Virus record (IMG/VR): IMGVR_UViG_3300008266_000277
Coordinates: 1-64,000 of that record
Length of the DNA stretch: 64,000 nt
Direction: 5' to 3' (one strand)
Source: a virus
A program made the translations under genes and the position numbers. The notes beneath the pieces are model-generated. The model saw only the letters and a list, made by a program, of their open reading frames with translations, searched no databases and was not told where the DNA came from. Below are positions 9,462 to 33,823 of this stretch, in pieces; positions within the stretch are counted from its first letter, which is position 1, and each line of letters opens with the position of its first letter.

Positions 9462-10488
9462 AAAATTAATTAGGGAGAGTGATTTCTACAGCTCTCCCTT
9501 TAACTTCAGCTATAGCAGTCTGAATAGATTATTGTATGCACCTGGACTATTCTATACAGAGTATGTGTTAGGTATGAAAGAAGTTAAGACAGATGCACAT
9601 CTAATAGAAGGTAAGTTAATTCACTACCTAATGTTGGATAGTGCACTGTTCTCTGACAAGTTCATATTAGCATCAGGTAATCTACCAACTGATAGCGTGA
9701 AGACAGTAGTAGATATTGTATATGAAGTAATCGATAGGAGCGAAGATAAGACTCTAGATGATTACGCAGACGTAGTACTAATTACGTTAAAACAAGTTAA
9801 TTTATATCAGAAGTTTGTTGATGATAAGAAACCTGACAAAGATGGTATTCAGAAGACTGCAGATGAGAAGCGCCTGGAGAAGGTACTTACTACTGAAGCA
9901 AGAGAGTACTTTGAGTTTCTTAAAGTAAAAGGAACAAAAGATATCATTGATCAAACCACACTCGACAAGTGCACTCAAGCAGCTGATATTCTAAAGAGCA
10001 ATTCAAAGATCCGTCAATTGCTTGCACTTGATGAAGTACATGATGGAACAACTATTGGAATTTATAACGAGTTAGCTATAGATGGACCACTAGAAGGTTT
10101 TTCATTTGGTATCAAGGGCATCATTGACAACATGGTGGTTGATGTTAAGCGTAAGCTTGTTACAATAAATGACTTAAAAACGAGTAATAAATCGCTCAAT
10201 GAATTCTCTGAGTCAGTAGATTATTGGAACTATTGGATGCAGGCCGCCATGTATGTTAAGCTCGCAAAGATATTTCTTAAGGATGTAATAGATGATTCAT
10301 GGACAATAGTGTTCAACTTCATTGTAATTGATAAGTATAATCAGACGTATCCATTCAAAGTAACTAATGTTACTATGGATAAGTGGATGGAAAGATTAGA
10401 CGCTCAGTTACAAGAAGCTAAGTGGCACTATGAAAACAGAGACTATAGTTTACCTTATAAGTTCATAAGCGGGGAAGTTTTACTTTAA
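9445..10488 (+). CDS. PD-(D/E)XK nuclease of RecB/Cas4-like exonuclease type
   Basis: A 347-residue nuclease with the full RecB-type motif series. GKLIH contains His60, KGIID contains Asp228, INDLKTSNK has Asp243-x-Lys245, and QAAMY has Gln266 and Tyr270. SYSSLNRLLYAPGLFY at the N-terminus is the usual opening helix. This PDDEXK_1 layout is found in phage exonucleases that resect DNA ends for recombination, which fits with the Sak4-like ATPase and SSB upstream. The Cys cluster of iron-sulphur Cas4 enzymes is not visible. It overlaps the previous gene by 17 bases. Start choice: the first ATG (MMDTN); the second ATG is 3 bases on. Confidence 0.85.
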   Translation: MMDTNEKLIRESDFYSSPFNFSYSSLNRLLYAPGLFYTEYVLGMKEVKTDAHLIEGKLIHYLMLDSALFSDKFILASGNLPTDSVKTVVDIVYEVIDRSEDKTLDDYADVVLITLKQVNLYQKFVDDKKPDKDGIQKTADEKRLEKVLTTEAREYFEFLKVKGTKDIIDQTTLDKCTQAADILKSNSKIRQLLALDEVHDGTTIGIYNELAIDGPLEGFSFGIKGIIDNMVVDVKRKLVTINDLKTSNKSLNEFSESVDYWNYWMQAAMYVKLAKIFLKDVIDDSWTIVFNFIVIDKYNQTYPFKVTNVTMDKWMERLDAQLQEAKWHYENRDYSLPYKFISGEVLL

Positions 10489-17900: not shown

Positions 17901-20661
17901 TAAGATCAATAATAGCTTCTTGTAAAGGAGCAATTTCTATTTCTTTTGCTACTGTGCTAGGAAGAGTATCTAATATCTCCTTGATACGGGCAAAGATCTC
18001 TTGACGTTTAGTATACCAAGATTGCTTAATAACAACACGTGTATTCTTACGTATCCATTCTTCACGAAGAGCATTATATTTATCTGAACCAACGCCATAC
18101 TTACTAGCTAGTTCATCTTCATAGTTAGAAAGAATCTGTTGAAATACACCAGGTCTTTCTTTCCATTCATAAAACTGACGAGATTTTTCTCTATACTCCC
18201 TTAGTCGTTGGGCAATAGCCAAGTCCTTACCTGTTTTCTTGTTGCCATATAGATCATACAAGGAGTGTAACTGACGATACTCACGCCATAGTGCATCTAT
18301 TTGATTTGCTATCTCAAGCTGTTCACTTTCATTAGTTGCAGTTGCAGATACTTGACGTATCTTCTCTATAATAGCCTCCCGTTTAAATGCTGCTTCTTTA
18401 CCAATCTCATCTCTTTCAAATAAACTTTGTCTATCGTAGAACTCAGGTCTGTATTCCTGATGGAAATACTTACGTAAAAATTCTTTACGTCTAGCAACAG
18501 CATCTCTTAATCTAGTTAAGGAAGCATCTGTATTAGTTGTAGAATATTCTCGCTCAGCTTCATCTACTTCATTATTCATTACTTGAAGATCATGTCGATA
18601 ATCTCTGAATGGGTTGAGAAGTGTCCATATTTTTCTACGTACCTTTTGACCATTCTTATCTTCTGCAAGCACAGTATCTAGGAAACCTACTTTCTTTCCT
18701 AAGTCACCTATGTTACGAGGATTATATCCATAATCTTCTAAGGCATCTCTAAGATCATTTGCAAAGTCATTAAGTTTTGCTTGCGCATTAACCATGACTT
18801 CGTTCATATTATTTTTAACGTATAATGCTAGACCACCCACAATAGGGTCATTGTTATACATATATCCTTCAAAGAAGCCATTGAACCAGTTAGCATCACC
18901 TAGTTGACCTTTAAGTAAGTCTTCAATTTTCTCAGGAGTAATCTCAATACCTTGAGCAGCTTCAATACGCATGTTAGCATACTGTAGCTTCTCAGCATTA
19001 GTCATATACTCTTTCTTTCTTACTTTCTCACGTAGCTGATTATATACTGCATAATCTGATTTTGTTAGACCATAATATTCTCTATGCCATCTATCAATTA
19101 CTTTTTGAGGAGCCCCTTTCTCTTCAAGGTCTGAAATAATTTTTTCATATCTTTCTTTTGCTTCTCTACCTATGATCTCAAACTCTTCATAGATAACATC
19201 TCTAGTACCATCGGCATATACTTCCTTAGTTACACGATCTATCTTTTCTAAGTTAGTTTCAATACGAGTGATTACTTGATAGATTTTTGAGTTAGCAGGT
19301 ACACCAGAGTCAGGCTGATTAAAAGTATCTTTGATCTGACTGATGTACTTACCCCAATGATCAGTAAGCTTACGATAATAAGTTATTTTTTGTAGATTAT
19401 CTTGTGATAGACCATTCTTATAAAGGTCATCCATATGAGCTTGAATCTTACTGATAACAGTATCTACATTGTAGATAGTATTAACAAGAGCATTAGCTTG
19501 AGACTCAAGAAGTTCCATTGCTGCAATTTCATTGTCAACAATATTATCAATCTGATTCTTATATTTATTAAGATCCTGCATAATAATCTCCATATCAGGA
19601 CGCTTATACTGATCTCTTAGAATGACAGCTAGTTGCTTATAGTTACCATTTTGTTGTAATTCTCTTAGCTGTCCTGATGCTAGTTGGTAACCTTCATATA
19701 TCAATGCCTGAAGTTCTTGCTTATCTACCTTCTTCATGTCATTGATTTCTTCTTGATACTCTTTCAGATATGCAACTACATCTTCTTCAGTTACTAGTTC
19801 AGTATCAATCTTAAAGTTTTCATTAGTCAGCATCATTGCTAACTCATCAAGCGTAGTTGTAGGATCTAGCTTAGATACTTCTACCTGACCAAATGCATTT
19901 CTAAATAATTTTTTAAGTGCATAGAAGATATCTCTAATAAACTTAGCAAAACCAGGAGATTCTTCTTGTTTCATAGAAGCTCTTTCCAAAGCTTTTACAA
20001 CTACCTCTTCTCTAAACATTGGCCCATCCATGCTAAGATTAGGATGCGTTCTGCTAACTTCCTCTACTATAAGCTTACCTTCGTTAGTACTCATTAGATT
20101 GTCATACAACCTATTGAATAACTCAGGATTATCTACAATGATCTGACGAACAAATGGGTGAGCAAACTCGTGGAATACAGACCCTACAGAAATAGAATCT
20201 CCTACAAAGAATACCTGACCATTAAAATAAAAAGCAGATTGACCACTCCATGGGTTAATGCTTCCTTGTGTAAGTTCTTTTGCACGTTCTGCTGTAATGA
20301 TATCAAACTTAACACCTAATCCATTAGATAGCTTTCTAGCTATTTCATAAGCTCGTGTATTGGCACTGTCTCTTACAATTTGTTCTACCATGTTATCAGT
20401 ACTACGATCAGATGCATGGAATAATTCCATAGCTATTTCTGTAGGAATACCTGACATGATACCTGCTGTATGAGGTAGTGGTTGAGCCATTTCCCTTGAT
20501 AGCTTTTGAGCTTCAAGTTTAGCCTTAACCTCTTCTGGTGTTCTAATACTGTTACCAGACTCTACGTAATCCTTATACGCTTCAAATCTACCTACTGCCT
20601 TTTCTAAGGCTTTCCATTCATCTAAGTTTATATTAGGACATACACTCATTACACAAAACAT
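14983..20661 (-). CDS. Giant virion protein with zincin domain and C-terminal membrane segment
   Basis: The longest frame codes 1,892 residues. The likely start is the ATG at 20649, overlapping the previous stop as TAATG, which gives 1,888. An HEFAH motif (His160, Glu161, His164 from that start) inside VFHEFAHPFVRQII marks a zincin-like metallopeptidase domain. The middle is long, charged and helical, with many Glu/Lys/Arg runs suggesting coiled coil. Near the C-terminus, VVGLAVISIALAMIFGW is a good membrane segment. Size, end-of-cluster position and membrane segment fit the large head-packaged cargo proteins of crAss-like phages that are ejected with DNA. The peptidase may mature virion proteins or act in the host; its substrate is unknown. 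Confidence 0.8.
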   Translation of the reverse strand: MFCVMSVCPNINLDEWKALEKAVGRFEAYKDYVESGNSIRTPEEVKAKLEAQKLSREMAQPLPHTAGIMSGIPTEIAMELFHASDRSTDNMVEQIVRDSANTRAYEIARKLSNGLGVKFDIITAERAKELTQGSINPWSGQSAFYFNGQVFFVGDSISVGSVFHEFAHPFVRQIIVDNPELFNRLYDNLMSTNEGKLIVEEVSRTHPNLSMDGPMFREEVVVKALERASMKQEESPGFAKFIRDIFYALKKLFRNAFGQVEVSKLDPTTTLDELAMMLTNENFKIDTELVTEEDVVAYLKEYQEEINDMKKVDKQELQALIYEGYQLASGQLRELQQNGNYKQLAVILRDQYKRPDMEIIMQDLNKYKNQIDNIVDNEIAAMELLESQANALVNTIYNVDTVISKIQAHMDDLYKNGLSQDNLQKITYYRKLTDHWGKYISQIKDTFNQPDSGVPANSKIYQVITRIETNLEKIDRVTKEVYADGTRDVIYEEFEIIGREAKERYEKIISDLEEKGAPQKVIDRWHREYYGLTKSDYAVYNQLREKVRKKEYMTNAEKLQYANMRIEAAQGIEITPEKIEDLLKGQLGDANWFNGFFEGYMYNNDPIVGGLALYVKNNMNEVMVNAQAKLNDFANDLRDALEDYGYNPRNIGDLGKKVGFLDTVLAEDKNGQKVRRKIWTLLNPFRDYRHDLQVMNNEVDEAEREYSTTNTDASLTRLRDAVARRKEFLRKYFHQEYRPEFYDRQSLFERDEIGKEAAFKREAIIEKIRQVSATATNESEQLEIANQIDALWREYRQLHSLYDLYGNKKTGKDLAIAQRLREYREKSRQFYEWKERPGVFQQILSNYEDELASKYGVGSDKYNALREEWIRKNTRVVIKQSWYTKRQEIFARIKEILDTLPSTVAKEIEIAPLQEAIIDLKSGFRDEDGQPDPSLMTKEAIDKIRALEQEIDARKAKYRSGVLVEEQAELNELYKIRETRALSKKEQDRLNELYAKKSKNRLDNFLKAELDGLYYELEQMSETDATDYYVDVVNNYLQLMDTDKLNDSLGSRAITAQSANRFLLDKDVIDELKRQNSDFAKWFDANHITVETATGTKYKRVSVWSVIRPTDPNDYEQTEIKDKSGRVIEKIAGLPAMKFYRQEVKEEYKTAKIVGKTVDNKGNFLPKSAEDLDQSQDGWDKYINKEYFDLKEKDPKLFTVLEKLTEHHLRNQNGLDNKSKLYLDFPRFTKPKGAFLGLGLETLQSTKVDEVGRARWNGLQQWIKRIREWFYGSTDQAEQGFNNKWENNLVTMAKLDLFDDEQSNIPISGLYNIEYEDVSTDIITSMMRYMYSAERQKQLIKISPVARAIQKVVNDPNNTVDLTKINKKNFIHRHIISYRKKKGTSVRADNVNNFLEREFEGINMKGAFSESAFVNNLSSALFSRASFQFFALNVPSALKNQWSAKYQTMIESTANKYLNPITAAKGEVWATMAMGDLSFGGNLYTKGPKSLTQQIIEIFDPSQGRFEEKLRNNTMSRTFTKDVVEGSWLYSTRKWLELQATLQQFGGMMHHKMIERTTEDGKVETIPYIEAFELDENKKIRLKSGIDPKYGFTYDAEGNIKLGKEFNHFKNKMQQVINSLNGAYAEYDQPEAQRYLLFRFMSYLRRYFTTMAIKRWGFKGPLLSPRARLNPGLGEPDMGYYIRTLQMLKQTVQNADFALKYATAEEKQAAMRVLAEVVGLAVISIALAMIFGWDPDDDERYDKLRALSGPLDFFGVEGDANRPFNTVGFAETHLINLLMQVRAENEQFLPLPSATPYVGGGLYNYFDLLDLKSIAFGPTTDTYREILDDMIHIMKGDDKAYYTRDTGPYFFQQKGGSKLLAKLAKLVGFTGSTLDPAMAIQKFYNAQAMARR

Positions 20662-22301
20662 TTATTCATTAGGTCATGATATTCTTCATCAGTTATTGGT
20701 TGTTGAGCAACACGTATAACTTCTGCAACACCTTCAGCTTCTTTTACAAAGTTAGGATTAATATAGCCAAATTCCTCAAGTAATCTTGTTGATAGATACT
20801 TAAATGTTTCAGGAGCTACAGCAACACCTATTTTATTGCCTGCCTCATCAGTAAACATCTTACCTGTAGTGTCATTTGCACCAATCATATATTGACCATA
20901 TCCTGCTTTACTGAATACAGGCTGTAAGCCTTTTTCATCACGCATCTTTTTTATATTTTCAATACTTTCATCAATTGCTTTTCTTACTTCAGGTCTAACA
21001 CCACCTTCTTCAGCATCTGTTATAAATTCTACAAGCGATCCACCTCCATATTTTAGACGTGATATAATACCTGCCTTATTTTGAAATCCAGAGTGGAAAA
21101 TAAATCTATCTCTAAGATCTATATTACCTACACCACTTCCTTTAGGTAATGGAACTGCAGACGCACGTGTAGCTGCTACACTAGCTCCTGGTTCCATTGC
21201 TTCATTAAATACAGTAAAGTAATTTGTAGCATCTATGTTAAAGCCAACTGTTTCTTTCTTAGCACCTGTATATACTTGCTCAAGATCTTTAAGCTGCATA
21301 TCTGATGCGTCTAAGTACATAAGCTTACTACGTCTCATAAGTCCTGTAGCAGGAGTAGCACCTGTTGGTACATCAATCACATCCACAATAGCACCTGGCA
21401 TAATGATACCACGCTTAACCATTTCTTTAGCTGTAGCTTCATTAGGAACTGCATACTGACCTTTAACTCTATCAGATTTTAGATTGACATACATCTTGTT
21501 ATCCGAATATACAGGATAACCTTGACCTTTATCATTAATGTTTGCAATAATATTACCATTAGCATCTATAATGTTATGTACAGTTCTAGTTGTAGTAACA
21601 TCTTCAAATGTTTTATCATACGTTAACTTGATACGATAAAGAGGTACATCGCTAGTATATACAAGTGTTCCATCAGGACCATTCTGATAATTGTATCCAA
21701 GATCTTCTAGCTCTACTATATCTGCTTCAACAATAGATACAACAGGCTCACCATTTTGAATGTAGTCCATCTTGTAGATAATCTTATCACCTGCTTTTGA
21801 ACTTTCTCCTGTTGCAAAATCAGGCAGTTCAGCAAGCATTTCCATTCTAACTTGCATTGTACCTTCTGTGTCTATGATTTTATCAAGATTTTTTAGATAG
21901 GTATTATTTGAAGGATCTACATATTTTAGAAGTTCGCCAGTTGGTAAATAGAAGAACTTATGTATAGCATTCGTTCCATTAGACAGAGTAACCTCTACAT
22001 CAATAACAATTTGCGTTTTATCCCAACTAATATTTGCCACTTTAGCATTAGAGTAGGAGTGAATTCGCTCACCTAATGTTCTTGTAAATGAAACATTATC
22101 TCCTATTCTTAAGTATGGTTTAACAATTTCACCTTTAGGATTAATGAACGCAGGATCAAATGTTTTTTCTGTTCCTGTTTGTTCAATAAACATACGCTGC
22201 TCCAGTAAACTTGTAGGTCTATTTGATCTATCAGTAGGCATCACATAATTCTTACCACGAGTATCATACCTCTTATTAGCTTGTTCAAACGCATCAAACA
22301 T
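20649..22301 (-). CDS. C-terminal fragment of the giant RNA polymerase protein
   Basis: The frame codes 550 residues from an internal Met (MFDAFEQANKRYD). Coding sequence in this frame extends upstream to about 22,345, where it joins the polymerase core fragment after a frame change at an A5 run: six A would give TFKKASYCS in one frame. The content is beta-rich (VSFTRTLGERIHSY, KVANISWDKTQIVID) followed by a helical end with AGYGQYMIG and APETFKYLSTRLLEEFGY. I recognise no catalytic motif. It ends in TAA overlapping the next ATG by one base. It is probably the C-terminal part of the virion RNA polymerase polypeptide rather than a separate gene. Confidence 0.65.
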   Translation of the reverse strand: MFDAFEQANKRYDTRGKNYVMPTDRSNRPTSLLEQRMFIEQTGTEKTFDPAFINPKGEIVKPYLRIGDNVSFTRTLGERIHSYSNAKVANISWDKTQIVIDVEVTLSNGTNAIHKFFYLPTGELLKYVDPSNNTYLKNLDKIIDTEGTMQVRMEMLAELPDFATGESSKAGDKIIYKMDYIQNGEPVVSIVEADIVELEDLGYNYQNGPDGTLVYTSDVPLYRIKLTYDKTFEDVTTTRTVHNIIDANGNIIANINDKGQGYPVYSDNKMYVNLKSDRVKGQYAVPNEATAKEMVKRGIIMPGAIVDVIDVPTGATPATGLMRRSKLMYLDASDMQLKDLEQVYTGAKKETVGFNIDATNYFTVFNEAMEPGASVAATRASAVPLPKGSGVGNIDLRDRFIFHSGFQNKAGIISRLKYGGGSLVEFITDAEEGGVRPEVRKAIDESIENIKKMRDEKGLQPVFSKAGYGQYMIGANDTTGKMFTDEAGNKIGVAVAPETFKYLSTRLLEEFGYINPNFVKEAEGVAEVIRVAQQPITDEEYHDLMNKCFV

Positions 22302-25300
22302 AGCATTAAGAGTAGCGGTAGAAATGCTACAATAGGAAGCTTTTTGAATGTTGATGCAATTTCATGTATACTCTTTCTTACTTCTTCATTAAGTTCTTCT
22401 TCAGTTAATTTTGGCATATTTTCTTTAATTATGCCAGGAATAATTTTAGCAAGTTCAACTTCATTAGCTAAAGATTGTAACTGAAAGTAATATGAATCTA
22501 TTGTTTCTTTATCTTTAGGAGCGTCGATGAATGCAAGGTTAACACGTTCAGTATCCGTACCCTTAGTTGTTTCACTGTCAGGTATAAGATTTTTAAGGAC
22601 TGGAAACTTATCTGTAAGTTGTTGACCATACTTTGGATTTACCTTATGCTTTACAATGTCATATGCAAAAGCTGTTTCTCCGTTGAAGATAGCATGCATG
22701 TTATAAACATTCTTGAGTGCTTTATTTCTTATGTAAATTTCAAAAGCATATTTTAATCTATCTCGTTGATATGCTTTTTTAGCTTCTGTTCTAAGCATTA
22801 CTTCACCTTCGTCAAGATATTTATTCTTAAGGATAACTCTTGCTGATGCTTTCCAAATAAGATTAAAATCCTCATCTGATTTACGCAAAGCTTCCATTTT
22901 TGCAAATGTATCTTGAGCAAACTGACCACGCAAATATTCACGCTCAAAGACAAACTTAACGTATTCTCCAAAACTTGTAAAAGTACTTATCTCACCAACA
23001 GCTGGAATACCTAACTCATCAGATGGTTTTGTATAAGCTTTAGATTGGAACTGTTCCCAAAGTGTAGCATAGTCATAGTACATTATACCATCTACATATG
23101 CTGCTCCATACTTAGGAAGAGCTGCAACTTTTTGTAATGCAGTCTTAACTTCACTACCTCTATAATAGATAGGCTCTTTGGGATTCTCTAAATCAGATAC
23201 ATCAAATGTTAGGAATGAGTTCTGGAACAATATAGGCAACAAAGCATTTTTAAACTCTGTCATCAACTCAATGTCGTCAGTAAAGTATGTTTTGTTCTTT
23301 GCCTTATCCTTTCTACTAAAGGATAAATCAATCATAAATTTATTTATAACAGGGTTATTACGGAATCCAAATAGATCCTTCCATACAGCTATTTGAAATG
23401 GTTGCTGGTAGAAGCTTGCAATAGGCGAAGATATCTTAGTCTCATCTAAGATTCCAGTATCATTACCATCTTTATCTTTTATTGTAGGTATTAGACGATC
23501 AATAACATCAGATGGTAGTCTCCAGTATCTCGTTTGAGATCCTTTGACATCATCCATTCTGTTACGCTTGAGCTCCATAAGCTTTACAATCTTATCCTGA
23601 GCTTCAAACAAAGATCCCGACTTACCAGTATCTACATTTGTTCTAAGCTTGATATCCTTAACAGCTCTTTCCATATCTGTCATTTCAATGAAATGCAAGA
23701 AGATAGCTTTTTGAAAATCAGAAATAGTAGGATCGTTATAATTAATATTACGCTCTTCGATAGACTTTGGTCTACCCTTTTTATCAACTTTAGGATACTT
23801 AGTAAATACATACTCTAGTTGACCAGTAAGTTCATCTAATTTAAACTGACCATCTTTTGGAGCTGTTAAAAGTGTCTCACGCTTAATAACTTCTTTAAGA
23901 TTTTTTACTCTGTTTTCACTAGTCTCACCTTCAACTGAAATGCCTAATTTTTCAAGTATCATTTCTTTAGCTGCAAGAATAGCTTTGTCACGAGTAATCT
24001 TTTCTTTTTCAGGATTTTCTTCTTCCATAGCTGAAGACATGACGCTTTGCAAGCGATCTACTGTTTCCATGTACTCTTCAATAATTGGCTGACTAATGAA
24101 GTTACTAGCATATTCAATAGGTACACCTGCTTGTACAAGGAATAGCAACATAGGTCCTAGCTTATCATTACCTCTTAGATAGAAAATCCATGGATCCTTA
24201 GCAATATCCACCCAACCATTCATAAGCTGAGAGATGACATCACCAATCTTATTCTGGCCTAATGCATCATATCTATGAGAGAAGGAGATAGCTCTATCTT
24301 TATATCCTTTAACACCTAAAGTATTATGTGGTAAGTACAATGTTTGTCTTTCATAAGACATAAATACTTTACGCATATCTTTTTTATATGCTCGATCCGC
24401 TTGTCTATATGCTTCTTTCTCTTCATCAGTACGTGTATCCTTACCATCAATAAGTTTATCTTTCTTAATCTTCTCTTGCTTATAGAACTCACGAGCTAGA
24501 TTGATGATTTCTTCCATCTCTTCAGACTCGTAATCACCATTGATTTCTTTGTTATTTGGAGTTAGATATAATCCAATCCTGTTAAAAAGCTCATTATAAG
24601 TATTATCTACTGCACCAATACCTAAAGCTTTCTTACCGAGATTATTGGTCATCTGCTTATGTAGGTTGTAAGTAATTTCAAATATACGATTAGCCTGAAT
24701 ACCTCTAGCAGGAGCATCTTCATCATTAGTAGATATACGTGGATTATAATTACGATAAGTAGTCTTAAGATCATCTACTATAGGATCTAAGATATCTGTA
24801 CCGTTAGGACGTATTAGGTTAGAATAATTCTGAACTCTGCTTGATAAATTATTTAGCGCAAATAGCATATCATTCTGAGCTACCTTCTCCTGATCAGCAA
24901 GTACAAACTCATCAAAGCTAAGTACGTCACCTTCTTCTTGTAGAAAATCTATGATTTGTCCATTTACAACCTCAGCACCACCAAATAACTTATAGTATTT
25001 AAAGATTGCCATTGTTCTATCAATACCTGGTTCAAAATCTTTAACTATAAACTCTTCAGCTTTCTTTCTTTTGTATTCTTGATACTTCTTCTTATACTGA
25101 TCTGTACTAAATGCTTTATAAAGATCTACCTCATATACTGAATTACCATTTGCATCCACTGTCATATTAAGTGAGATGTTAGGCATCATCCATGTAATCT
25201 TATCAATATCATAGTCACCTCCAGATTTAGCTACTATTTCAGCAGGTAAGATAACTATGTTACCTGCTTCTTTAGGGAGGAATTCAAATACCTCAGCAAA

Positions 25301-28300
25301 TTCATCTGAGTTAAGTCCCTGAATAGGAATACGATCACCATGCATAGTAATCATCTTTCTATTGTTTCCTTGATTTAGCCAGTTGTCATCCTTAATCAAT
25401 CTGTTAAGATTAGCAAGTGATGCATTATAATCTAGTTCTTTTACAGGTTTATTTTTACGAGCAAGCAGATTACCTTGGTCATCTGTTGCATCGCGGAATA
25501 CTGCTACATCAGGTAGATATAAAAGTTTTTCAAAATCACCTTGCATAGAGATTTTAACTTTCATTGCATCTACTCTACCTGTATTAGGATTAATTCTATA
25601 ATATGTAAGTCCATTTGTACCTCCATATTGAGCAATTAATTCTTCTGTTGCAGGCTCAAGCATAGCGCCAGATACTTGAATAAGAGCTTCTCCTTTTGTT
25701 TTTTGACGTATTAGAGATTTAACAACAAGAGCGTTAAGTAGTCTTTCAATTTTGTCAGCAGCTAATGAGAAAGATAAGTCATGCTTTAGCCTACCTTCAA
25801 AGTCAGTATTAATAAAATCTAATTCGTGATCTGCTAACTCTTGATTGCTAAGCTGAGTCTTAACATACTTAACTAGATTAGACATGTCACCTACAAGCTC
25901 ACCATCACTGTTAATTTTAAGTTTAGCTCTCTTAAGTAATTGTGCTTTCTTAACTTGAGTTAGGTTAGCAACAGCTTGTTCATATTCAATAAGAGCTTTA
26001 AAATTTTTGTATTCGCCTGCTTCTAACTGCTCTTCAAATGAAAGAGCCATCCACTTCTCTATACGTGTTTCAAGAGGTTCTTCTACTAAAAAGTCAGTAG
26101 GAATACCATTCTCCATCAAGTCTACCTCTATAAGTTTACGGATCTGAGTAGGAATAGTTACTTTACCTTTCCACTTAGGCTCAATCTTAAGCTGATTCTT
26201 AAGATATTCTACATGAATTTTGTTAACTGTAAATGGTGCATCATCATTTATATCTCTATCCTGAGTATATACATTGTCTTTAAGAGATGCAATATCAAGC
26301 TTGTCATATTTCTTTTGTCCTTCAACACCAACGTATTCTGCATCAGTAGATCTTACAATCTTACCATCTTTGGTCATACGTATAGGTTTGCCTGCATCAT
26401 CAAACTGAACAGTTGTAAGAGTACCAATTTTAGACCCTGATTCAAACAATACATAGTCAATACCTTCACGCATCATTTTTTCATGAAGAGTCTTAAGTTT
26501 AGGACTTAAATTAGCTACAGAAGGTATAATAGGAGTAAGCTGAAATTTATGAAATGCTTCTATAGTAACATCACTTGTAAGTGGATTATCAGCACTGTTT
26601 GCTAAAGCTCCCCAGTACTGCGCCTTAATTGGTGGGAAGAAAGTACCAATTTTCTCTGCAGGTATATTTTCTCCACGTAACAAAGCTAAATAGATCTTCT
26701 CTTGCGCAGGTGTCCATTCACCTTGAGAATCCATAAGAATTCGATACGCATCAAAACTAATCCATCCTTGAGCATCTGCTTCAGTCATTTCAGCATACTT
26801 ACCCATGATGCTTTTTCCAGTAGGCTCAATACCTTTTATGCTATCAATAGAAGTTATATCTATACCTGCATTTACAGCACCAAATAGTTTAGTTTTAACA
26901 TCAGTTTCTATTTGTTTTACACTACGTTTAACAGTAGCTGTTCTATTTGCAGCTATTGCATCATCAACCATTTGCTTATACAGATTATACCCCATTTCTT
27001 CAAGATATACACTACGTGTAATTTTATCTCTCATAACAGCAGTATTCATGGTGCCATCATAAGCACGCATTGGTAATCCTGTAAGTTGCTCTTCAAACTT
27101 TCTACCTAATCCTCTTTCAGAATCATTTACAAAACGTAGCCAATCTTCATCTGTACGATATCCTGTACCTGTAGATGCAATACCTGCATTACGTTTATGG
27201 AACTCTTCTTTCATGTGGTTATACTGAGCAATATCTCCATATAAGAAGTTCATTGACTCAACATTATGAATCCATGAGTTATATACCCATGATTGAACTG
27301 CTAAATTATCTAATAAATTATCAGCAACAAATCCAAACTTATCGTACTCCGCTTTTACTTCTTTGTATTGACCTTCAAAATAATTTTTTGTCTGATCTAT
27401 TACTTCTTGTTTTAGCTTTTGTGCTTTCTCATCTGCAGTATTTGCAAAGTATACATCAAGATCTCCTTCTACTTTAGATAACTTCTCTTTGGTAGATGCA
27501 TCTAATATACCCTCAAACGTTAGGAACTTTTGACCTTGAGCTAAATAATTAAAATCAAATACAGGAGTAGGGGTTATTTGCATTCCCTCCTTTTTCTCTT
27601 TTGCAATTTGCTTAAGTATTTGATCAATATCTTTTTTCTTTTGCATAAATCTTCTTACGCGATTATGCTCAGATACTAAATTAGGTAAGATATAATGATT
27701 AAATGCCCGCATGTGGTAATCATCTCTACTACCAGCAAATCTCCAGTTAGGTACGTATTGACCTTGAGTAACGTCACCAGTAGATAATGCATCAGGAGAA
27801 GTAATGTAATTAAGAATCACTGAATAAGACGTGCTCTTATCTGAGTGACGCATTAATTCAGGTAGTCCTTTCTGTACAGCTAGGTGTAAATCTAATATAA
27901 ACTTAGTATATGGGTCAGCAGCAGCTGAAGATACACCTTCCTTATTTGCTTCTCTTGCTCCACTAACATCAAATAATTCTAGCTTAACTATTCTACCTCC
28001 TGTAGCAGTTTTACGAGACCCATAATCTTTGTCATCTTTAGGTATTAGATTACCATCACTGTCTACTATATTAAACATGTTTGTCAACCAAACATATCTC
28101 TTAGCATTAGGATTCTTTTCAATATCAAATTTTGCCATATGAGGCATGCGAGTAAGATTCTCATAAGCAGATACTCTTTGCATATTGCCCTCCTCATCTG
28201 GCTCCATTGTGTCTTCAACAGAGTTTACAGATGAGACCATAATAGACATACTACTATTTAGTGAATGCTCAAACTTAGTATTACCATCAGCAGTAGTTAC

Positions 28301-28690
28301 CATGAAGCTAGGAAGACCTGCACCATATTGACCTTCTATTGATTGTAATTCCAACCAGTTTTTTCCTTCACCTTCTAAACCAGAAATATATGCATCTTGC
28401 CCTACACCATCTACAAGTGTAATTCCTGCAAGCAATTTCATTTTTGTTGCCTCAAATATGTCTTGTGGTTTAGTAATAATAATACCATTCTTAGCAATAA
28501 TCTCTAATAACGACATTCCTTTTGTATTCCAAGGATCCAGCTTATTCTTATTAAGCTTATCTTTAAGAATACGATCTTTATTTTTTATAAGAAGTGTTTC
28601 TACCCATCTAAATCCATCTTTACCAGCAGCTATACCTAGTTCAGGGCTACCAAATTCCAATGCATATCTAACCTCTTCAGTATCTGACAT
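22241..28690 (-). CDS. Virion RNA polymerase core (YonO/crAss-like, double-psi beta-barrel type)
   Basis: This frame codes 2,149 residues from the first ATG, but coding sequence continues upstream in frame to 28,867, so the ATG is probably internal. The key feature is SGGDYDIDKITW at about 1157-1168, with Asp1159, Asp1161 and Asp1163. DxDxD is the metal-binding centre of two-barrel RNA polymerases and is the hallmark of crAss-like virion polymerases and the YonO family. These single-chain enzymes are packaged in the head, ejected, and transcribe early genes. The length is close to that of the phage phi14:2 enzyme (about 2,180 residues). The last 30 residues (LPIVAFLPLLLMLCLM...) are an out-of-frame tail, not a membrane segment. 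Confidence 0.88.
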   Translation of the reverse strand: MSDTEEVRYALEFGSPELGIAAGKDGFRWVETLLIKNKDRILKDKLNKNKLDPWNTKGMSLLEIIAKNGIIITKPQDIFEATKMKLLAGITLVDGVGQDAYISGLEGEGKNWLELQSIEGQYGAGLPSFMVTTADGNTKFEHSLNSSMSIMVSSVNSVEDTMEPDEEGNMQRVSAYENLTRMPHMAKFDIEKNPNAKRYVWLTNMFNIVDSDGNLIPKDDKDYGSRKTATGGRIVKLELFDVSGAREANKEGVSSAAADPYTKFILDLHLAVQKGLPELMRHSDKSTSYSVILNYITSPDALSTGDVTQGQYVPNWRFAGSRDDYHMRAFNHYILPNLVSEHNRVRRFMQKKKDIDQILKQIAKEKKEGMQITPTPVFDFNYLAQGQKFLTFEGILDASTKEKLSKVEGDLDVYFANTADEKAQKLKQEVIDQTKNYFEGQYKEVKAEYDKFGFVADNLLDNLAVQSWVYNSWIHNVESMNFLYGDIAQYNHMKEEFHKRNAGIASTGTGYRTDEDWLRFVNDSERGLGRKFEEQLTGLPMRAYDGTMNTAVMRDKITRSVYLEEMGYNLYKQMVDDAIAANRTATVKRSVKQIETDVKTKLFGAVNAGIDITSIDSIKGIEPTGKSIMGKYAEMTEADAQGWISFDAYRILMDSQGEWTPAQEKIYLALLRGENIPAEKIGTFFPPIKAQYWGALANSADNPLTSDVTIEAFHKFQLTPIIPSVANLSPKLKTLHEKMMREGIDYVLFESGSKIGTLTTVQFDDAGKPIRMTKDGKIVRSTDAEYVGVEGQKKYDKLDIASLKDNVYTQDRDINDDAPFTVNKIHVEYLKNQLKIEPKWKGKVTIPTQIRKLIEVDLMENGIPTDFLVEEPLETRIEKWMALSFEEQLEAGEYKNFKALIEYEQAVANLTQVKKAQLLKRAKLKINSDGELVGDMSNLVKYVKTQLSNQELADHELDFINTDFEGRLKHDLSFSLAADKIERLLNALVVKSLIRQKTKGEALIQVSGAMLEPATEELIAQYGGTNGLTYYRINPNTGRVDAMKVKISMQGDFEKLLYLPDVAVFRDATDDQGNLLARKNKPVKELDYNASLANLNRLIKDDNWLNQGNNRKMITMHGDRIPIQGLNSDEFAEVFEFLPKEAGNIVILPAEIVAKSGGDYDIDKITWMMPNISLNMTVDANGNSVYEVDLYKAFSTDQYKKKYQEYKRKKAEEFIVKDFEPGIDRTMAIFKYYKLFGGAEVVNGQIIDFLQEEGDVLSFDEFVLADQEKVAQNDMLFALNNLSSRVQNYSNLIRPNGTDILDPIVDDLKTTYRNYNPRISTNDEDAPARGIQANRIFEITYNLHKQMTNNLGKKALGIGAVDNTYNELFNRIGLYLTPNNKEINGDYESEEMEEIINLAREFYKQEKIKKDKLIDGKDTRTDEEKEAYRQADRAYKKDMRKVFMSYERQTLYLPHNTLGVKGYKDRAISFSHRYDALGQNKIGDVISQLMNGWVDIAKDPWIFYLRGNDKLGPMLLFLVQAGVPIEYASNFISQPIIEEYMETVDRLQSVMSSAMEEENPEKEKITRDKAILAAKEMILEKLGISVEGETSENRVKNLKEVIKRETLLTAPKDGQFKLDELTGQLEYVFTKYPKVDKKGRPKSIEERNINYNDPTISDFQKAIFLHFIEMTDMERAVKDIKLRTNVDTGKSGSLFEAQDKIVKLMELKRNRMDDVKGSQTRYWRLPSDVIDRLIPTIKDKDGNDTGILDETKISSPIASFYQQPFQIAVWKDLFGFRNNPVINKFMIDLSFSRKDKAKNKTYFTDDIELMTEFKNALLPILFQNSFLTFDVSDLENPKEPIYYRGSEVKTALQKVAALPKYGAAYVDGIMYYDYATLWEQFQSKAYTKPSDELGIPAVGEISTFTSFGEYVKFVFEREYLRGQFAQDTFAKMEALRKSDEDFNLIWKASARVILKNKYLDEGEVMLRTEAKKAYQRDRLKYAFEIYIRNKALKNVYNMHAIFNGETAFAYDIVKHKVNPKYGQQLTDKFPVLKNLIPDSETTKGTDTERVNLAFIDAPKDKETIDSYYFQLQSLANEVELAKIIPGIIKENMPKLTEEELNEEVRKSIHEIASTFKKLPIVAFLPLLLMLCLMRLNKLIRGMILVVRIM

Positions 28691-28847
28691 CTTAATACCT
28701 ATAGCATTTAAGAATGCAAATACTTTTTTAATGTCGTATTTACCTTTAGTTTTAAGAGAGTCAAGATCAGGATATTTCTTAAGTAATTTATTTACATTAA
28801 GTACAGTAATACCTGTTTCTACATCATCCTCAGCAAACTCATTATCT

Positions 28848-30797
28848 TTATCCCATGCATAGATTTTCTACAGCTCTGCTATTCAAATGTTTGAACTCTC
28901 CAACGTCTAATCCTCTAGGACCCAGCTTATTAATAAGTTGAGTAACAGCCATAGTCATTTCATTTTGATTAGGCTGTTGAGCAAACTTAACAAGCTTGTT
29001 ATACATGTTAATTACATCGAGCTCATTCTCAAGTATAAGTGATACTTTACCCCATACTTCTTCTGAATCCATTAGTACAGGAGCACCTAATTCATTGACA
29101 ACAGGCATCATTGTTTCAGGATCCATCTTAATAATGGTCTTAAACAGATAATTAACTTCTGCTTTAGCTATTTCTTTTTGAGATATTTCAGCACCGCTTC
29201 TATCCGCATATTCAGATCTTGTAGCTTTCTCTTCATCAGGAGTTTCTTTTTCATCTAGAAGTTCAAGAGCTTTGCTGCCAAAATCTTTTGACTTAGCTAA
29301 ATGAAATGCAATTACACCTCTGATTACACCATCTTTATCAGGTACATTATTTTCGATGTTATTAAGATCACCAAAGTTTTCACGTGCAAACATTACAAGA
29401 CCTAACTTTTCGCGTACATCTTGTAACTTATTATTATCAACTCCTTCAGCTCTTAATCTTCTATATTCAGAATCCAGTTCTAACTGCAGTCGAGATAACA
29501 AATGTTCAACACGTCTGTACGCTTGGGTTTTACCAGCTTTAGATCTTAGGTAATTTGCACTTTGACTATAAGTAAGATTTTTTGCCTCTTCTAATTTTCT
29601 ACGTTCCATCTCTGCAGGTGAAACGCGATTCATCATTAGATCTACTTGAAGTTTAAGATACTTTTCTAGCGCTTCTTCTGTTTGCAAATCTGTATTAGCT
29701 GCATTTATAGATTGAGCAATCCAACCATCTATTGAATCTAATAATAGTTTAGTATCTTTCTTAGATAGATTAGAGAATGTAGCTTCTTCATCCAATGCCT
29801 GTATGCCTGTACTGTTTAGTGTGTTATTAAAACGTGCATCAGGTTTTTGGAAGTTGTAATCTGTCATGTCTCCTTTACGAAGAGCATCAAATACTTTTTT
29901 GATTTCGCTGTTAGCATTACCATCTGCCATTACATCAGCAATAGTAAGATTACCAAACAGTATTTCTAATACATCAAGGAGTTTCTTGAAGAATGACTTT
30001 CTAGCAGGAGCAGATTTAATAGCCATCTTACCTTGAGATAGCATGTACTGTCTGAACTCTTCTGCTAAGTACTCTTCTACCTGCTTATCAGTAGCGTACT
30101 TAAATGGAGTCATCTTACCTTCATAATCTTTGAAGGTACCTGTCATTTTACGTACTTCAGAATAAAGCGCTTCTCTTTGTTCAGGTGTCATAAAAGCCTG
30201 AGTAAAGCCATGGAATGCTTCGTGGTAAAGCTGTGTGTAGTTTGATCCTTTGTATAGTACAATACCATTCATAGACCAAGTAGCAATAGAACTTGAATCT
30301 TGCTGGTTAACCATATCAAAAGCTTCCCTAAATGAGAAGTGCTTGCTTAAAGGATGTTTTTCATACCATGCTTTAGCAGTGTCAATATCTTCTTGAGTTA
30401 TCTTACCTCCACTAAGTTGAATAACACGTGTATTCCATACGTCATCGCTCTCTTCATCTGTAGGTCTACCAAGGAAAGGATCTGATGGATTATCTTTCTT
30501 AGTCTTATTAGCACTAGCGTCTGCTTTACGAGATGTTCTACGTCTCTTCTTTTCTACTGTACTAGGCGGTGGTTCTGTAGTATCTAGAGGATCCTTTATT
30601 TCTACAACATTTACAGCAGAAGGTGCTTCTTCAGAAACCTTTAGCTCGTTTCTTACTTCCATTAGAAGTTTAGGAAATGCTTTACCCCATTTGCTTTTAT
30701 CCTGTGTATGAGTTAAAGTAAGATTACCTGTAGCTTGCAAGCTTGCAAGAGCCTGTGGATTTTGACTAAAAGATGCAATTAGCAGATCCTTCATCAA
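28848..30797 (-). CDS. NADAR plus HExxH zincin fragment of the giant RNA polymerase protein
   Basis: The frame codes 649 residues from an internal TTG, but coding extends upstream to about 31,045. The upstream part plus residues 1-50 form a NADAR domain: FQSVEQAFQW with the catalytic-type Glu, then WDDNAEALMKDLL, ASFSQNPQALASLQATGN, THTQDKSKWG and LLMEVRNEL. After a basic linker (EKKRRRTSRK) comes LYHEAFHGF with His192, Glu193 and His196, a zincin motif; EEYLAEEFRQY about 30-40 residues on could supply a third ligand. The rest is helical. It stops at 28,848 after a frame change beside an A4 run; the other frame continues into the polymerase core. Confidence 0.75.
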   Translation of the reverse strand: MMKDLLIASFSQNPQALASLQATGNLTLTHTQDKSKWGKAFPKLLMEVRNELKVSEEAPSAVNVVEIKDPLDTTEPPPSTVEKKRRRTSRKADASANKTKKDNPSDPFLGRPTDEESDDVWNTRVIQLSGGKITQEDIDTAKAWYEKHPLSKHFSFREAFDMVNQQDSSSIATWSMNGIVLYKGSNYTQLYHEAFHGFTQAFMTPEQREALYSEVRKMTGTFKDYEGKMTPFKYATDKQVEEYLAEEFRQYMLSQGKMAIKSAPARKSFFKKLLDVLEILFGNLTIADVMADGNANSEIKKVFDALRKGDMTDYNFQKPDARFNNTLNSTGIQALDEEATFSNLSKKDTKLLLDSIDGWIAQSINAANTDLQTEEALEKYLKLQVDLMMNRVSPAEMERRKLEEAKNLTYSQSANYLRSKAGKTQAYRRVEHLLSRLQLELDSEYRRLRAEGVDNNKLQDVREKLGLVMFARENFGDLNNIENNVPDKDGVIRGVIAFHLAKSKDFGSKALELLDEKETPDEEKATRSEYADRSGAEISQKEIAKAEVNYLFKTIIKMDPETMMPVVNELGAPVLMDSEEVWGKVSLILENELDVINMYNKLVKFAQQPNQNEMTMAVTQLINKLGPRGLDVGEFKHLNSRAVENLCMG

Positions 30798-31050
30798 AGC
30801 TTCAGCATTATCATCCCAAATACCTGTTTCAAGATTTGGAAATGATTTACCCAGCTTTCTTAACTTCGCACCATCTGTTGTTGCAAGGATCTCATTTTGA
30901 ATTTTTTCATCTTTAGCATTATCTGCAGCAATCAGTTTTTGAGTTTCTTCTGTTGGTATAGAAGGATCTATTTGATAGTTATTAGTATATAATCCTTTTG
31001 TCCACTGAAATGCTTGTTCAACGCTTTGGAATGTAATCTCTTGTTGCTTT
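30645..31050 (-). other. NADAR domain (ADP-ribose/riboflavin-intermediate hydrolase fold), N-terminal strand missing
   Basis: Translation of this stretch in the frame of the 649-residue fragment gives EITFQSVEQAFQWTKGLY, then an insertion, ILATTDGAKLRKLG, IWDDNAEALMKDLL, LATGN-like QATGNLTLTHTQD, KWGKAFPKLLMEVRNEL. This is the NADAR/YbiA pattern. Known members hydrolyse riboflavin-pathway intermediates or remove ADP-ribose from guanosine in DNA. The usual N-terminal segment (FY or IYAG, then LSNF) is not visible; the preceding frame ends near NENGES, so a short deletion is likely together with the frameshift. Confidence 0.75.
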
Positions 31051-31360
31051 CACCATTCTCATTGACTACAGGATTAATAGTATTTCTAACACCATCTACA
31101 GTAACTACTTTTGTAGTTTTAACATCTGCAGAAACACTAGCAGGTTTATATTCTGTTATACCTTCTGTCTTAATATCTTCTAACATCTGTGGATAAGATG
31201 CAGCATGTCTATCAATAGTTTCTTCTGAAACATTTGCTCTGTTAACTCCTGCTGCAATATCTGCTTTTATTCTTTGTTTAGCTAATTCAGCATTTAAAGG
31301 CATTAACTTATACTGAATATTAGCACCAGGTATTGCTTTTTTAATAGCCTCTGGTATCAA
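30968..31360 (-). pseudogene. C-terminal half of a P-loop kinase domain (fragment)
   Basis: 130 residues in a third frame beginning at a TTG, not a convincing start. EAIKKAIPGANIQYKLMPLN, KQRIKADIAAGVNRANVSEETIDRHAASY is the second half of an AAA_33/polynucleotide-kinase-like domain: a strand, then the lid helix and the conserved V-x-x-E-x-I-x-R segment. The first half lies in the next fragment. Between them, the segment that normally follows VVFDT (TN, then basic residues) appears to be absent. After about residue 90 the product becomes linker-like and ends out of frame at 30,968. Confidence 0.6.
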
Positions 31361-31661
31361 AGACTACCTGTTTACCACTCTTTACAGCTTCTATTGCTCT
31401 TTTAGCAGCTTCAATATAAATTTCTTTATCTTTAGATTTATCATTTATATCTCCTGTAAACTCAACTCTCATCTCATCAGGAGAAATTACTACTAAATTT
31501 TCTTGAGGTAAACTTTTTATAAAAGTAGATTTTCCACTTCCAGAAGTTCCTATAGGTAAAATAACATCAGCTTTAGCATCTGTAGTAACAGGACCTCCAG
31601 TAAGCTGAGGTTGTGTAGGACGTGTGTACTTATTGATGTCCTCACGAGCAATTCCTTGCAT
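31341..31661 (-). pseudogene. N-terminal half of a P-loop kinase domain (fragment)
   Basis: 106 residues from an internal Met; coding in this frame reaches upstream to about 31,772 (QAEAIFNALASESTLEW). ILPIGTSGSGKSTFIKSL is a Walker A motif (GTSGSGKST). VVISPDEMRVEFTGD carries the D-E/x-R acceptor motif of AAA_33, zeta-toxin and polynucleotide kinase-type proteins. The fragment breaks at VVFDT, just where these kinases have T-N followed by basic residues. It is part of the giant polymerase polypeptide. Substrate is unknown: nucleic acid ends, nucleotides or small metabolites are all possible in the family. Confidence 0.65.
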
Positions 31662-31708
31662 TGTCTTTGTAAAGCTAAACTGTCCTCTACGTGGAGTAGG
31701 TACCCACT

Positions 31709-33802
31709 CTAATGTAGATTCTGATGCAAGCGCATTAAAAATAGCTTCTGCCTGTTCTCTCGTATAAATGGCATTGTAGCATCTGCTTCATTGAATATTT
31801 CAATAGCTTGCTTAGTAGATTCAGGTAATGCGTCAAATGCTTCTTGAACTCTTTTACGTTGTTCAATTAATGCTTTTGTAAATTCATCAACTTCGTCCTC
31901 TTCTTTCTTATCATCAACTTTATCAATCTTAGATGTTTCACTAGCTAAAGGAGAGAAAGTAAAATATGCATTAAGAGAAATAATCTGATTGTCAGCATTA
32001 AGAAGCTTATCAATCATAAAGTTATCCTTAATATAACTATTGAAGTAGCCATTAGGTATAATTACCTGATTCAATCCACCACCTTCACGAGGAGACAATG
32101 AGAAGTGTGTACCGTTATTCTGACCTTCCTGTGTGATATTAAGAGTCATGTAACCAAGTACACGATATGTAGTTTCTCCAGTGCCCTGATCTTGAATAGC
32201 TAAAATGTCACCACGATTTGCTCCTGTTGCAGATGTTACAATCTTAGCTCCCTGAGATTTACGTTCATTTACTTGTGCATTGGTAAGTGGTTTACCAAAT
32301 GGCATAAGTGAATTAAACGCATCTTTAATTTTTTGCTTAGCAACTTGACGTGCTTCTGGTGTAGAAAGATCTAATACTTCACCCATGATACGAGGACCTC
32401 GATCCAGCATAGATATTGTATTAGAGTTAAGCATTACGTATCTCTCTAGAATATTTTTCTTAGACTTATTATCTAACTTCAACCCCATTGCGTATACTTC
32501 TTCTGTCATGAAGTCAGCAAGCATATCTACAAGCTCAGGTCTTTCAGCAAATGTCATCTGCTTAAGTCTGATATTACCTTCACTTATACTAGGTAAATTA
32601 AAAAAGTACTGACCATTAACGATGTCAATAGTCACTGCATCAGTAGGAAAGTTAACACTTGATAAGAAATAATAATTAGGAGCATTACCCAAGATACCTA
32701 ATGTACCTCCGTCAATCTCCATACCTACAGTATGACTTATGTCCTTTGATACATAATCCAAAATCTTCTCTACAATAGCACGCTCCTTCATAATCATATC
32801 TTTTGCTACTTCAAAAGATACTTTCTGTGTGTTTTGGATAGCTGTTATTCTTTGCTTCTCATATGCACCATCAATATCATAGGGATTACGAAGATTGTAG
32901 AATGCAGGTTTACCATTGGTATCTACCTCTGCATTATCATTGAATTTAACAGGATTACCAAATTGATCTACTACAACCAATACAACAGGAGTAGTAGATG
33001 GAAGCAGCATATCTGCAGGTAATAGATCTTTACTCTGAGCTCTAAGATACAGAGGACCTACTCCTGGATAATTAATTTCAGATCCTTTATTACCACCAGA
33101 AAGCATTCTAACAATAGCACGCTTAACTGTATAAAAGAATTTCTTAGCAGGATCAATAACATTATATCCTTTGCTTGCAGGATCCATACTGATAGCTTCG
33201 TTGTCAGTATCCTTGAGTGCATGTGGAGCTACTGCTTCAAATGCTTTTTCAGGATAAACAACGCCTTCTTCAGGTTTCTCATCAGATACATCTGCAACTA
33301 TAGGGTTACCATTTTTATCAAAAAGTATAAGCTGATCTTGAGACACCTTTCCTCCAGGTAGATCTGTTGGTTCTTTCTTTTTACGTCCACGCTTTTTTTT
33401 AGGCTTTGCTTCAGCAGCATCATTGACATCATCAATAATGTTTCGAGATACACCTAACTCTTTTTCTACATACTCAATACCAGTAACAGGATCTAAAGCT
33501 ATAGCTGCAAGTCGCGCAGTTGCTGTAGGATCAAACCCTTTAGACATTGCTGTTCCAATGTTCTCAATATCCTTTGCAGATATATTATATAGAACAGTAG
33601 GAACCATACGAGCAAAGCGTACACCTAATTCATGATCTCCTGTCTTTCCTACAACATCATTATACATCTGCTTCATCATGTCATTTACATTGACAGATGT
33701 GTCAGGAGATTTCATGATGCGGTTATAATCTGCAGCTAAGTATTCATAGAGCTTAACGTAAACGGAATAATTTTTATCATCCTTACTTAAAGAACATATC
33801 AT
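31709..33802 (-). CDS. N-terminal fragment of the giant RNA polymerase protein
   Basis: 697 residues; the start at 33802 follows the previous gene by 21 bases. A basic segment, KPKKKRGRKKK (residues 133-143), looks like an AT-hook or DNA-binding linker. A beta-rich part follows (PVVLVVVDQFGNPVKFND, FFNLP-like patches). The last 20 residues (RQKLFLMRLHQNLH) are out of frame: shifting at GAGAGAAC near 31,775 gives QAEAIFNALASES, which continues into the kinase fragment. No catalytic motif is recognised in the 697 residues. It is the likely N-terminus of the giant polypeptide and so of the ejected polymerase. Confidence 0.7.
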   Translation of the reverse strand: MICSLSKDDKNYSVYVKLYEYLAADYNRIMKSPDTSVNVNDMMKQMYNDVVGKTGDHELGVRFARMVPTVLYNISAKDIENIGTAMSKGFDPTATARLAAIALDPVTGIEYVEKELGVSRNIIDDVNDAAEAKPKKKRGRKKKEPTDLPGGKVSQDQLILFDKNGNPIVADVSDEKPEEGVVYPEKAFEAVAPHALKDTDNEAISMDPASKGYNVIDPAKKFFYTVKRAIVRMLSGGNKGSEINYPGVGPLYLRAQSKDLLPADMLLPSTTPVVLVVVDQFGNPVKFNDNAEVDTNGKPAFYNLRNPYDIDGAYEKQRITAIQNTQKVSFEVAKDMIMKERAIVEKILDYVSKDISHTVGMEIDGGTLGILGNAPNYYFLSSVNFPTDAVTIDIVNGQYFFNLPSISEGNIRLKQMTFAERPELVDMLADFMTEEVYAMGLKLDNKSKKNILERYVMLNSNTISMLDRGPRIMGEVLDLSTPEARQVAKQKIKDAFNSLMPFGKPLTNAQVNERKSQGAKIVTSATGANRGDILAIQDQGTGETTYRVLGYMTLNITQEGQNNGTHFSLSPREGGGLNQVIIPNGYFNSYIKDNFMIDKLLNADNQIISLNAYFTFSPLASETSKIDKVDDKKEEDEVDEFTKALIEQRKRVQEAFDALPESTKQAIEIFNEADATMPFIRENRQKLFLMRLHQNLH

Positions 33803-33823
33803 CTCTTAAACATTTAATATTTA

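Follow-up and report, generated by a model that had tools for sequence, protein, structure and literature searches.

Crassvirales are among the most abundant viruses of the human gut; to our knowledge, little is known of counter-defence in this group. The phage answers to ADP-ribosylation defences that we know of are so far mostly proteins made after infection starts, and such proteins may come too late to protect the first transcripts.

NADAR enzymes, that of T4 included, remove ADP-ribose from guanosine in DNA and RNA (PMC11543638, PMC11125620, PMC11833690). They do not remove it from thymidine (PMC11125620), and ADP-ribose on uracil is likewise left in place. Phage NADARs are typically stand-alone proteins (Iyer et al. 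2022, PMC9503650). According to PMC7886860, the virion RNA polymerase (vRNAP) of phi14:2 is translocated and transcribes early genes; gp76-78 of this phage are annotated as structural by MS/MS. In crAss001, gp47, gp49 and gp50 are found in virions and are modelled as ejected (PMC10172136).

The window analysed here is a 64,000-nucleotide stretch of the IMG/VR virus record IMGVR_UViG_3300008266_000277. It contains a real NADAR domain (Table 1). In a profile search of the window ORFs, the PF08719 match scores 37.7 bits (curated cut-off 35.1 bits), and the complete 64.8-kb record, searched in six frames, has the domain only once (E=9.5e-11). The PF08719 cut-off is exceeded in 49 of 53 records. 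The motifs SVEQAFQW, ATGN...THTQD, KWG and LMEVRNEL all lie in frame on the minus strand within the domain, and the catalytic residues are kept. The original prediction, which identified the NADAR from these motifs, had named the lack of a profile match to NADAR (DUF1768) as a finding that would count against it; the match is present. It had also placed the domain between a kinase and a zincin, in the same reading unit as a polymerase core. This arrangement stands, with a kinase (AAA_33) just upstream and the zincin motif YHEAFH (HExxH) just downstream, and needs two corrections: the N-terminal NADAR segment is missing, and the stops in the frame very likely result from missing sequence.

Table 1. 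Features of the NADAR-bearing polypeptide in the window (positions of the window; L002 and L053 are relatives described in the text)
Feature	Position	Strand	Evidence
N-terminal part of giant polypeptide	31709..33802	-	colinear with L053 ORF residues 2-780
P-loop (polynucleotide-kinase-like) kinase cassette, interrupted near 31350 where sequence is missing	30968..31661	-	AAA_33 E=2e-8
Junction lacking the NADAR N-terminal segment; L002 starts exactly here	31049..31050		comparison with L002 and intact copies
NADAR domain, N-terminus absent at the 31049/31050 junction	30627..31049	-	PF08719 E=3.1e-9; alignment with 53 intact or near-intact relatives
Catalytic Glu (counterpart of E88 in E. coli C7 NADAR) within SVEQAFQWTK	31017..31019	-	invariant, 52/52 filled rows
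Phosphate-binding Lys (counterpart of K95 in E. coli C7 NADAR) within SVEQAFQWTK	30996..30998	-	invariant, 52/52
His of THTQD, column of the T4 gp30.3 phage-type His	30708..30710	-	invariant, 53/53
Zincin HEAFH motif	30210..30224	-	YHEA(W/F)H in most vRNAP ORFs scanned
Junction, 146 nt present in L002 missing, creates a false stop	28857..28859		window vs L002
Junction, 75 nt present in L002 missing	27292..27293		window vs L002
RNA polymerase core	24527..25972	-	profile match 9.5e-154; tblastn to crAss001 gp50, phi14:2 gp77
Junction, 133 nt present in L002 missing	22317..22318		window vs L002
C-terminal part of polypeptide	20649..22361	-	colinear with L053 residues 3846-4353; L002 ORF reads through

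The core region, whose DxDxD motif SGGDYDIDK (about 25225-25199) lies in ORF 22241-28867, matches the 'putative RNA polymerase' of crAss001 and the vRNAP of phi14:2; the phage is therefore placed in or near Crassvirales. Judged by these sequence comparisons, the NADAR is embedded in the putative vRNAP polypeptide of a Crassvirales phage. The shared reading unit is borne out by two relatives. The window pieces between 33805 and 20652 are colinear with one 4353-aa ORF of L053, at about 50% identity. L002 is 99.9-100% identical to the window over 20996-31049 and has one uninterrupted 3469-aa ORF through NADAR and zincin and past the polymerase core. Kinase, NADAR, zincin motif and polymerase share one reading unit; polyvalent proteins are defined by several enzymatic domains and a peptidase in one injected polypeptide, and the window polypeptide may be one of them. 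The zincin motif is a core feature of the vRNAP polypeptide family, with or without NADAR.

In the window, the frame stops at 28848, at 22241 and near 31049. The extra nucleotides of L002 at three junctions are in frame; the stops at about 28858 and 22317 very likely reflect missing sequence, since L002 carries this additional sequence while being identical elsewhere. The NADAR N-terminus is absent because sequence is missing at 31049/31050, where intact copies have NIYAGTGENAELSNFA.RPF. These breaks are very likely assembly deletions, which could be produced by a sequence end common to the cassettes of co-resident phages. Recoded stops or introns were rejected as the cause: under the standard code the L002 frame stays open, and the difference lies in sequence that the window lacks. 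Compared with relatives, one 13-kb gene (20649-33805) has at least four deletions, none at an obvious repeat, and the window record needs to be used with care. The broken frames were left unmended; pieces were searched separately and intact natural copies were used.

The window NADAR itself retains the catalytic Glu and Lys, whose roles are taken from the E88 and K95 equivalents (PMC11543638); in the alignment the Glu is also present in T4 gp30.3, A511 gp50 and YbiA. The domain is of the phage type described in PMC11125620, as 53 of 53 copies have a His in the column of the T4 gp30.3 His, which takes the place of the last-strand Glu or Asp of other NADAR subfamilies. When aligned via the following Trp, this His falls one residue after the Glu of YbiA, so that the two positions are only putatively equivalent in structure. 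The Thr and adjacent His of THTQD are both invariant; either may replace the Glu or Asp of other subfamilies. Profile searches against PDB match YbiA (5e-11) and NADAR 8bau (2e-9); the full L002 ORF, when compared directly with PDB sequences, gives no match. Structure prediction, a check suggested with the original prediction, was applied to the intact NADAR domain of L053 as a stand-in for the N-terminally truncated window copy. The AF2 model (pLDDT 90.7) folds as NADAR/YbiA: its top fold match is 8bau, a P. nicotianae NADAR with ADP-ribose (E=3e-6, probability 1.0), and YbiA 2b3w is also matched. From this model, the window domain family is predicted to share the NADAR/YbiA fold.

IMG/VR scans yielded 12 loci at first and 56 in a second round; once named phages and later loci were added and duplicates removed, 56 distinct NADARs were available. 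The DxDxD core is in the same ORF in 46 of these, with NADAR N-terminal to the core in 12 and C-terminal in 34. For three others the core is in another ORF, and for seven there is no core within the fetched stretch; one of the seven, L066, may fall outside the crAss-like group. No complete stand-alone NADAR gene occurs among the 56 relatives, the only short NADAR ORFs (344 and 387 aa) being ones that run off contig ends. Each record has one NADAR. The named carriers are cr126_1, cr131_1 and cr130_1, and the 2402-aa protein of cr126_1 is already a 'DUF1768 domain-containing protein' in GenBank. Absence of a homologue at this position in related phages had been proposed as grounds for doubting the domain; L053 carries an intact copy at the same place, and many relatives carry one elsewhere in the same polypeptide. 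A bacterial origin was rejected: in 84,980 species genomes the signature occurs on only three MAG contigs, on two of them in ORFs of more than 1400 aa. In a different setting, an N4-like Dinoroseobacter phage (L076, 2482-2940) has a stand-alone NADAR directly upstream of an N4 gp15-like RNA polymerase subunit gene; this arrangement is another link between NADAR and transcription.

NADAR behaves as an exchangeable cassette, with repeated gain and loss, relocation between N- and C-terminal sides, horizontal transfer and allele replacement. Loss or gain can be seen between L003 and L126/L129, which are about 69% identical either side of NADAR; the latter two cleanly lack the domain. L120 (45% identical) has no residue at the NADAR place. 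Transfer is seen between L010 and L036, whose DNA is 97.5% identical over 471 nt, essentially the NADAR domain, while their polymerase cores are only 28% identical and no DNA similarity is detected in the 900 nt on each side. The difference between L023 and L045 (NADAR at about locus 9980-10450) is an allele swap: the flanks are 98.7-98.8% identical, but the two have different N-terminal NADAR halves between conserved ends. Over 990 pairs, NADAR identity is almost uncorrelated with polymerase identity (r=0.13). On the polymerase tree, a quick one with SH-aLRT support only and 75 rows, 30 of them a random sample of NADAR-less polypeptides, presence or absence of NADAR requires 12 changes; well-supported branches force at least seven changes of the NADAR-less state and at least four of the N-side state. 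Of the 80 polymerase loci closest to L053, a sample biased for cassette frequencies, only 4 have NADAR within 10 kb; NADAR is therefore accessory. The domain is also under purifying selection, with dN/dS of about 0.15-0.4 in recent pairs and below about 0.4 in nearly all.

Other enzyme modules occur in the same polypeptide family. The window kinase is a second exchangeable cassette: it is 91%, 83% and 76% identical at the amino acid level to kinases at other places in L096, L130 and L106. It was rejected as a fixed partner of NADAR, since the two are neighbours within the polypeptide only in the window and the kinase occurs without NADAR elsewhere. An AlkB-like 2OG-Fe(II) oxygenase is found inside vRNAP polypeptides, in some close to NADAR (L013); it is present in 5 of 52 NADAR-bearing records (e.g. 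G028, G008, G016) and in 3 of 11 NADAR-less polypeptides. SLOG-type cpYpsA domains are found in 2 of the 11 NADAR-less relatives. ART-PolyVal occurs in or beside the polymerase-linked giant proteins of some NADAR-bearing crAss-like phages, G046, G043 and NC_055901 among them. DprA, suggested by a product name in cr130_1, was rejected for the NADAR records, with PF02481 in 0 of 52 by a scan that counts TAG as a stop in TAG-recoded records. A 5808-aa protein of NC_055901.1 (13777-31182) is named DprA-like in GenBank; PF02481 does not match this record with TAG counted as a stop. On a Bacteroidales MAG contig (L159, 4082-5266), a NADAR of the crAss-like-polypeptide type is joined to a cpYpsA SLOG domain; the fusion is broken by a stop.

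The best explanation is an exchangeable NADAR ADP-ribosyl-hydrolase cassette in a vRNAP that is probably packaged in the virion, predicted to de-ADP-ribosylate phage DNA or early RNA; its probability is put at roughly 0.5. Work on relatives suggests that the polypeptide would be kept in the capsid and leave it ahead of the genome, and virion mass spectrometry of relatives lacking NADAR is the basis for supposing that NADAR would be ejected with the polymerase. On arrival, NADAR would act on phage DNA or early RNA, cleaving the N-glycosidic bond of ADP-ribosyl-guanine or of a similar ADP-ribosylated base. As it would be delivered with the polymerase, it could work ahead of all phage gene expression; the template and first transcripts would be kept readable while host ADP-ribosyltransferase (ART) defences act. 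The opposed ART probably varies between hosts, which would explain the swapping of cassettes and alleles. A base substrate is favoured because NADARs remove guanosine-ADPr and homologous polymerases are virion-borne or translocated. The exchange dynamics match what is expected of the counter-defence module originally proposed.

The main rival reading keeps the same cassette and delivery but takes the substrate to be a soluble NAD- or ADP-ribose-derived signal or toxin of host immunity (TIR, sirtuin, ART). Action on soluble ADP-ribose derivatives has been argued for phage NADAR, Macro and SLOG domains generally, with phage NADARs said to act mostly in this way (Iyer et al. 2022, PMC9503650), and the cpYpsA domains in NADAR-less relatives and in the L159 fusion fit this. 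However, all NADARs tested in PMC11125620 and PMC11833690 cleave guanosine-ADPr, and fusion to a polymerase in the company of AlkB and kinase domains points to nucleic acid; soluble signals are considered a rather unlikely substrate, ahead of the remaining alternatives. An antidote directed specifically at DarT-like DNA ADP-ribosylation (the guanosine marks of DarT1), a target named in the original prediction, is improbable and weakly supported. Orphan antitoxin-like enzymes that counter DarTG1 are reported from phages (Johannesman et al. 2025, as cited in PMC12548467), and both Glu and Lys are conserved here. On the other hand, the T4 NADAR, which has the same His type, removes guanosine-ADPr in vitro and did not rescue E. 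coli from DarT1 toxicity (PMC11125620). DarT is found in 18 of 198 Bacteroidota genomes and NADAR in 0 of these 18; in 3 of 3 inspected loci DarT is paired with a macrodomain, as in the thymidine-modifying DarT2/DarG systems, whose marks are not reversed by NADARs. No DarT1-NADAR pair is seen in the 198 genomes, which is weak negative evidence for this phage. No DarT gene is annotated beside NADAR in cr126_1, cr131_1 or cr130_1, and membership of the DarT1-associated NADARs (BC4488 group) was rejected, with Thr-His found instead of the Asp of that group.

NADAR could also offset ADP-ribosylation by the phage's own injected ART of the same polypeptide family. ART-PolyVal is present in 7 of 52 NADAR-bearing records and shares a giant ORF with NADAR in three (G033, G042, G022), but 45 of the 52 records, many of them fragments, lack it, none is found in the window ORFs scanned, and it also occurs without NADAR; this origin of the substrate is very improbable. 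A metabolic role as a YbiA-kind N-glycosidase of riboflavin intermediates, for which the YbiA fold and TIGR02464 matches of 40-63 bits speak, is no likelier: these scores do not reach the 73.7-bit TIGR02464 cut-off and another residue stands in place of the YbiA-type Glu, so that membership of this family was rejected, and injection with a polymerase would have no evident reason. That NADAR is a structural or linker domain without an enzymatic role, hitch-hiking in a fast-evolving polypeptide, would agree with its frequent absence and with the evident viability of NADAR-less polypeptides. Invariant catalytic residues over 53 divergent copies, together with the low dN/dS of recent pairs, make this scarcely more probable than the previous two.

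If the preferred reading, a cassette acting on ADP-ribosylated phage DNA or early RNA, is correct, a de-ADP-ribosylase carried by the injected polymerase would be active from time zero, and the exchangeable cassette would be a natural index of the host ART defences met by phages. More broadly, and only tentatively, the injected polymerase may be a chassis for interchangeable cassettes (NADAR, kinase, AlkB, ART, SLOG), with NADAR alleles recombining at conserved ends and so changing the specificity-bearing half, in a virion-borne arms race against host ADP-ribosylation before phage expression. Intact NADAR domains are about 150 aa, and an assay on ADP-ribosylated oligonucleotides would be cheap and concrete.

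Phage NADARs, polyvalent injected proteins, orphan anti-DarT enzymes and one DUF1768-named crAss-like giant protein are already known. No description of a crAss NADAR-polymerase fusion or of its cassette exchange was found in a search of largely open-access literature. RNA-virus replicase polyproteins (nidoviruses and others; PMC9503650) likewise have NADAR beside a viral polymerase; the viruses and polymerases are unrelated, and the likeness is an analogy rather than shown ancestry. The orphan anti-DarTG1 enzymes (cited in PMC12548467) are phage-borne antitoxin-like enzymes with the same proposed purpose, whereas the crAss-like NADAR would be delivered by the virion. Polyvalent proteins (Iyer et al. 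2017, PMC5512222) are also multi-enzyme, peptidase-containing and thought to be injected, and some crAss relatives contain ART-PolyVal. The main text of PMC5512222 does not mention NADAR; DNA-level cassette exchange in a polymerase polypeptide comes from the present analysis. The Crassvirales vRNAPs phi14:2 gp77 and crAss001 gp50 have the DxDxD core and transcription-block position in common with the window polypeptide, but do not contain NADAR. T4 gp30.3 (phage-type NADAR; Pfam Phage_30_3/NADAR) shares the fold, the catalytic Glu and Lys, and the His that replaces the Glu or Asp of other subfamilies. In T4 the NADAR is a stand-alone gene; the crAss-like NADAR, in contrast, is always a domain of a giant polymerase-linked protein and has its own THTQDK.KWG signature.
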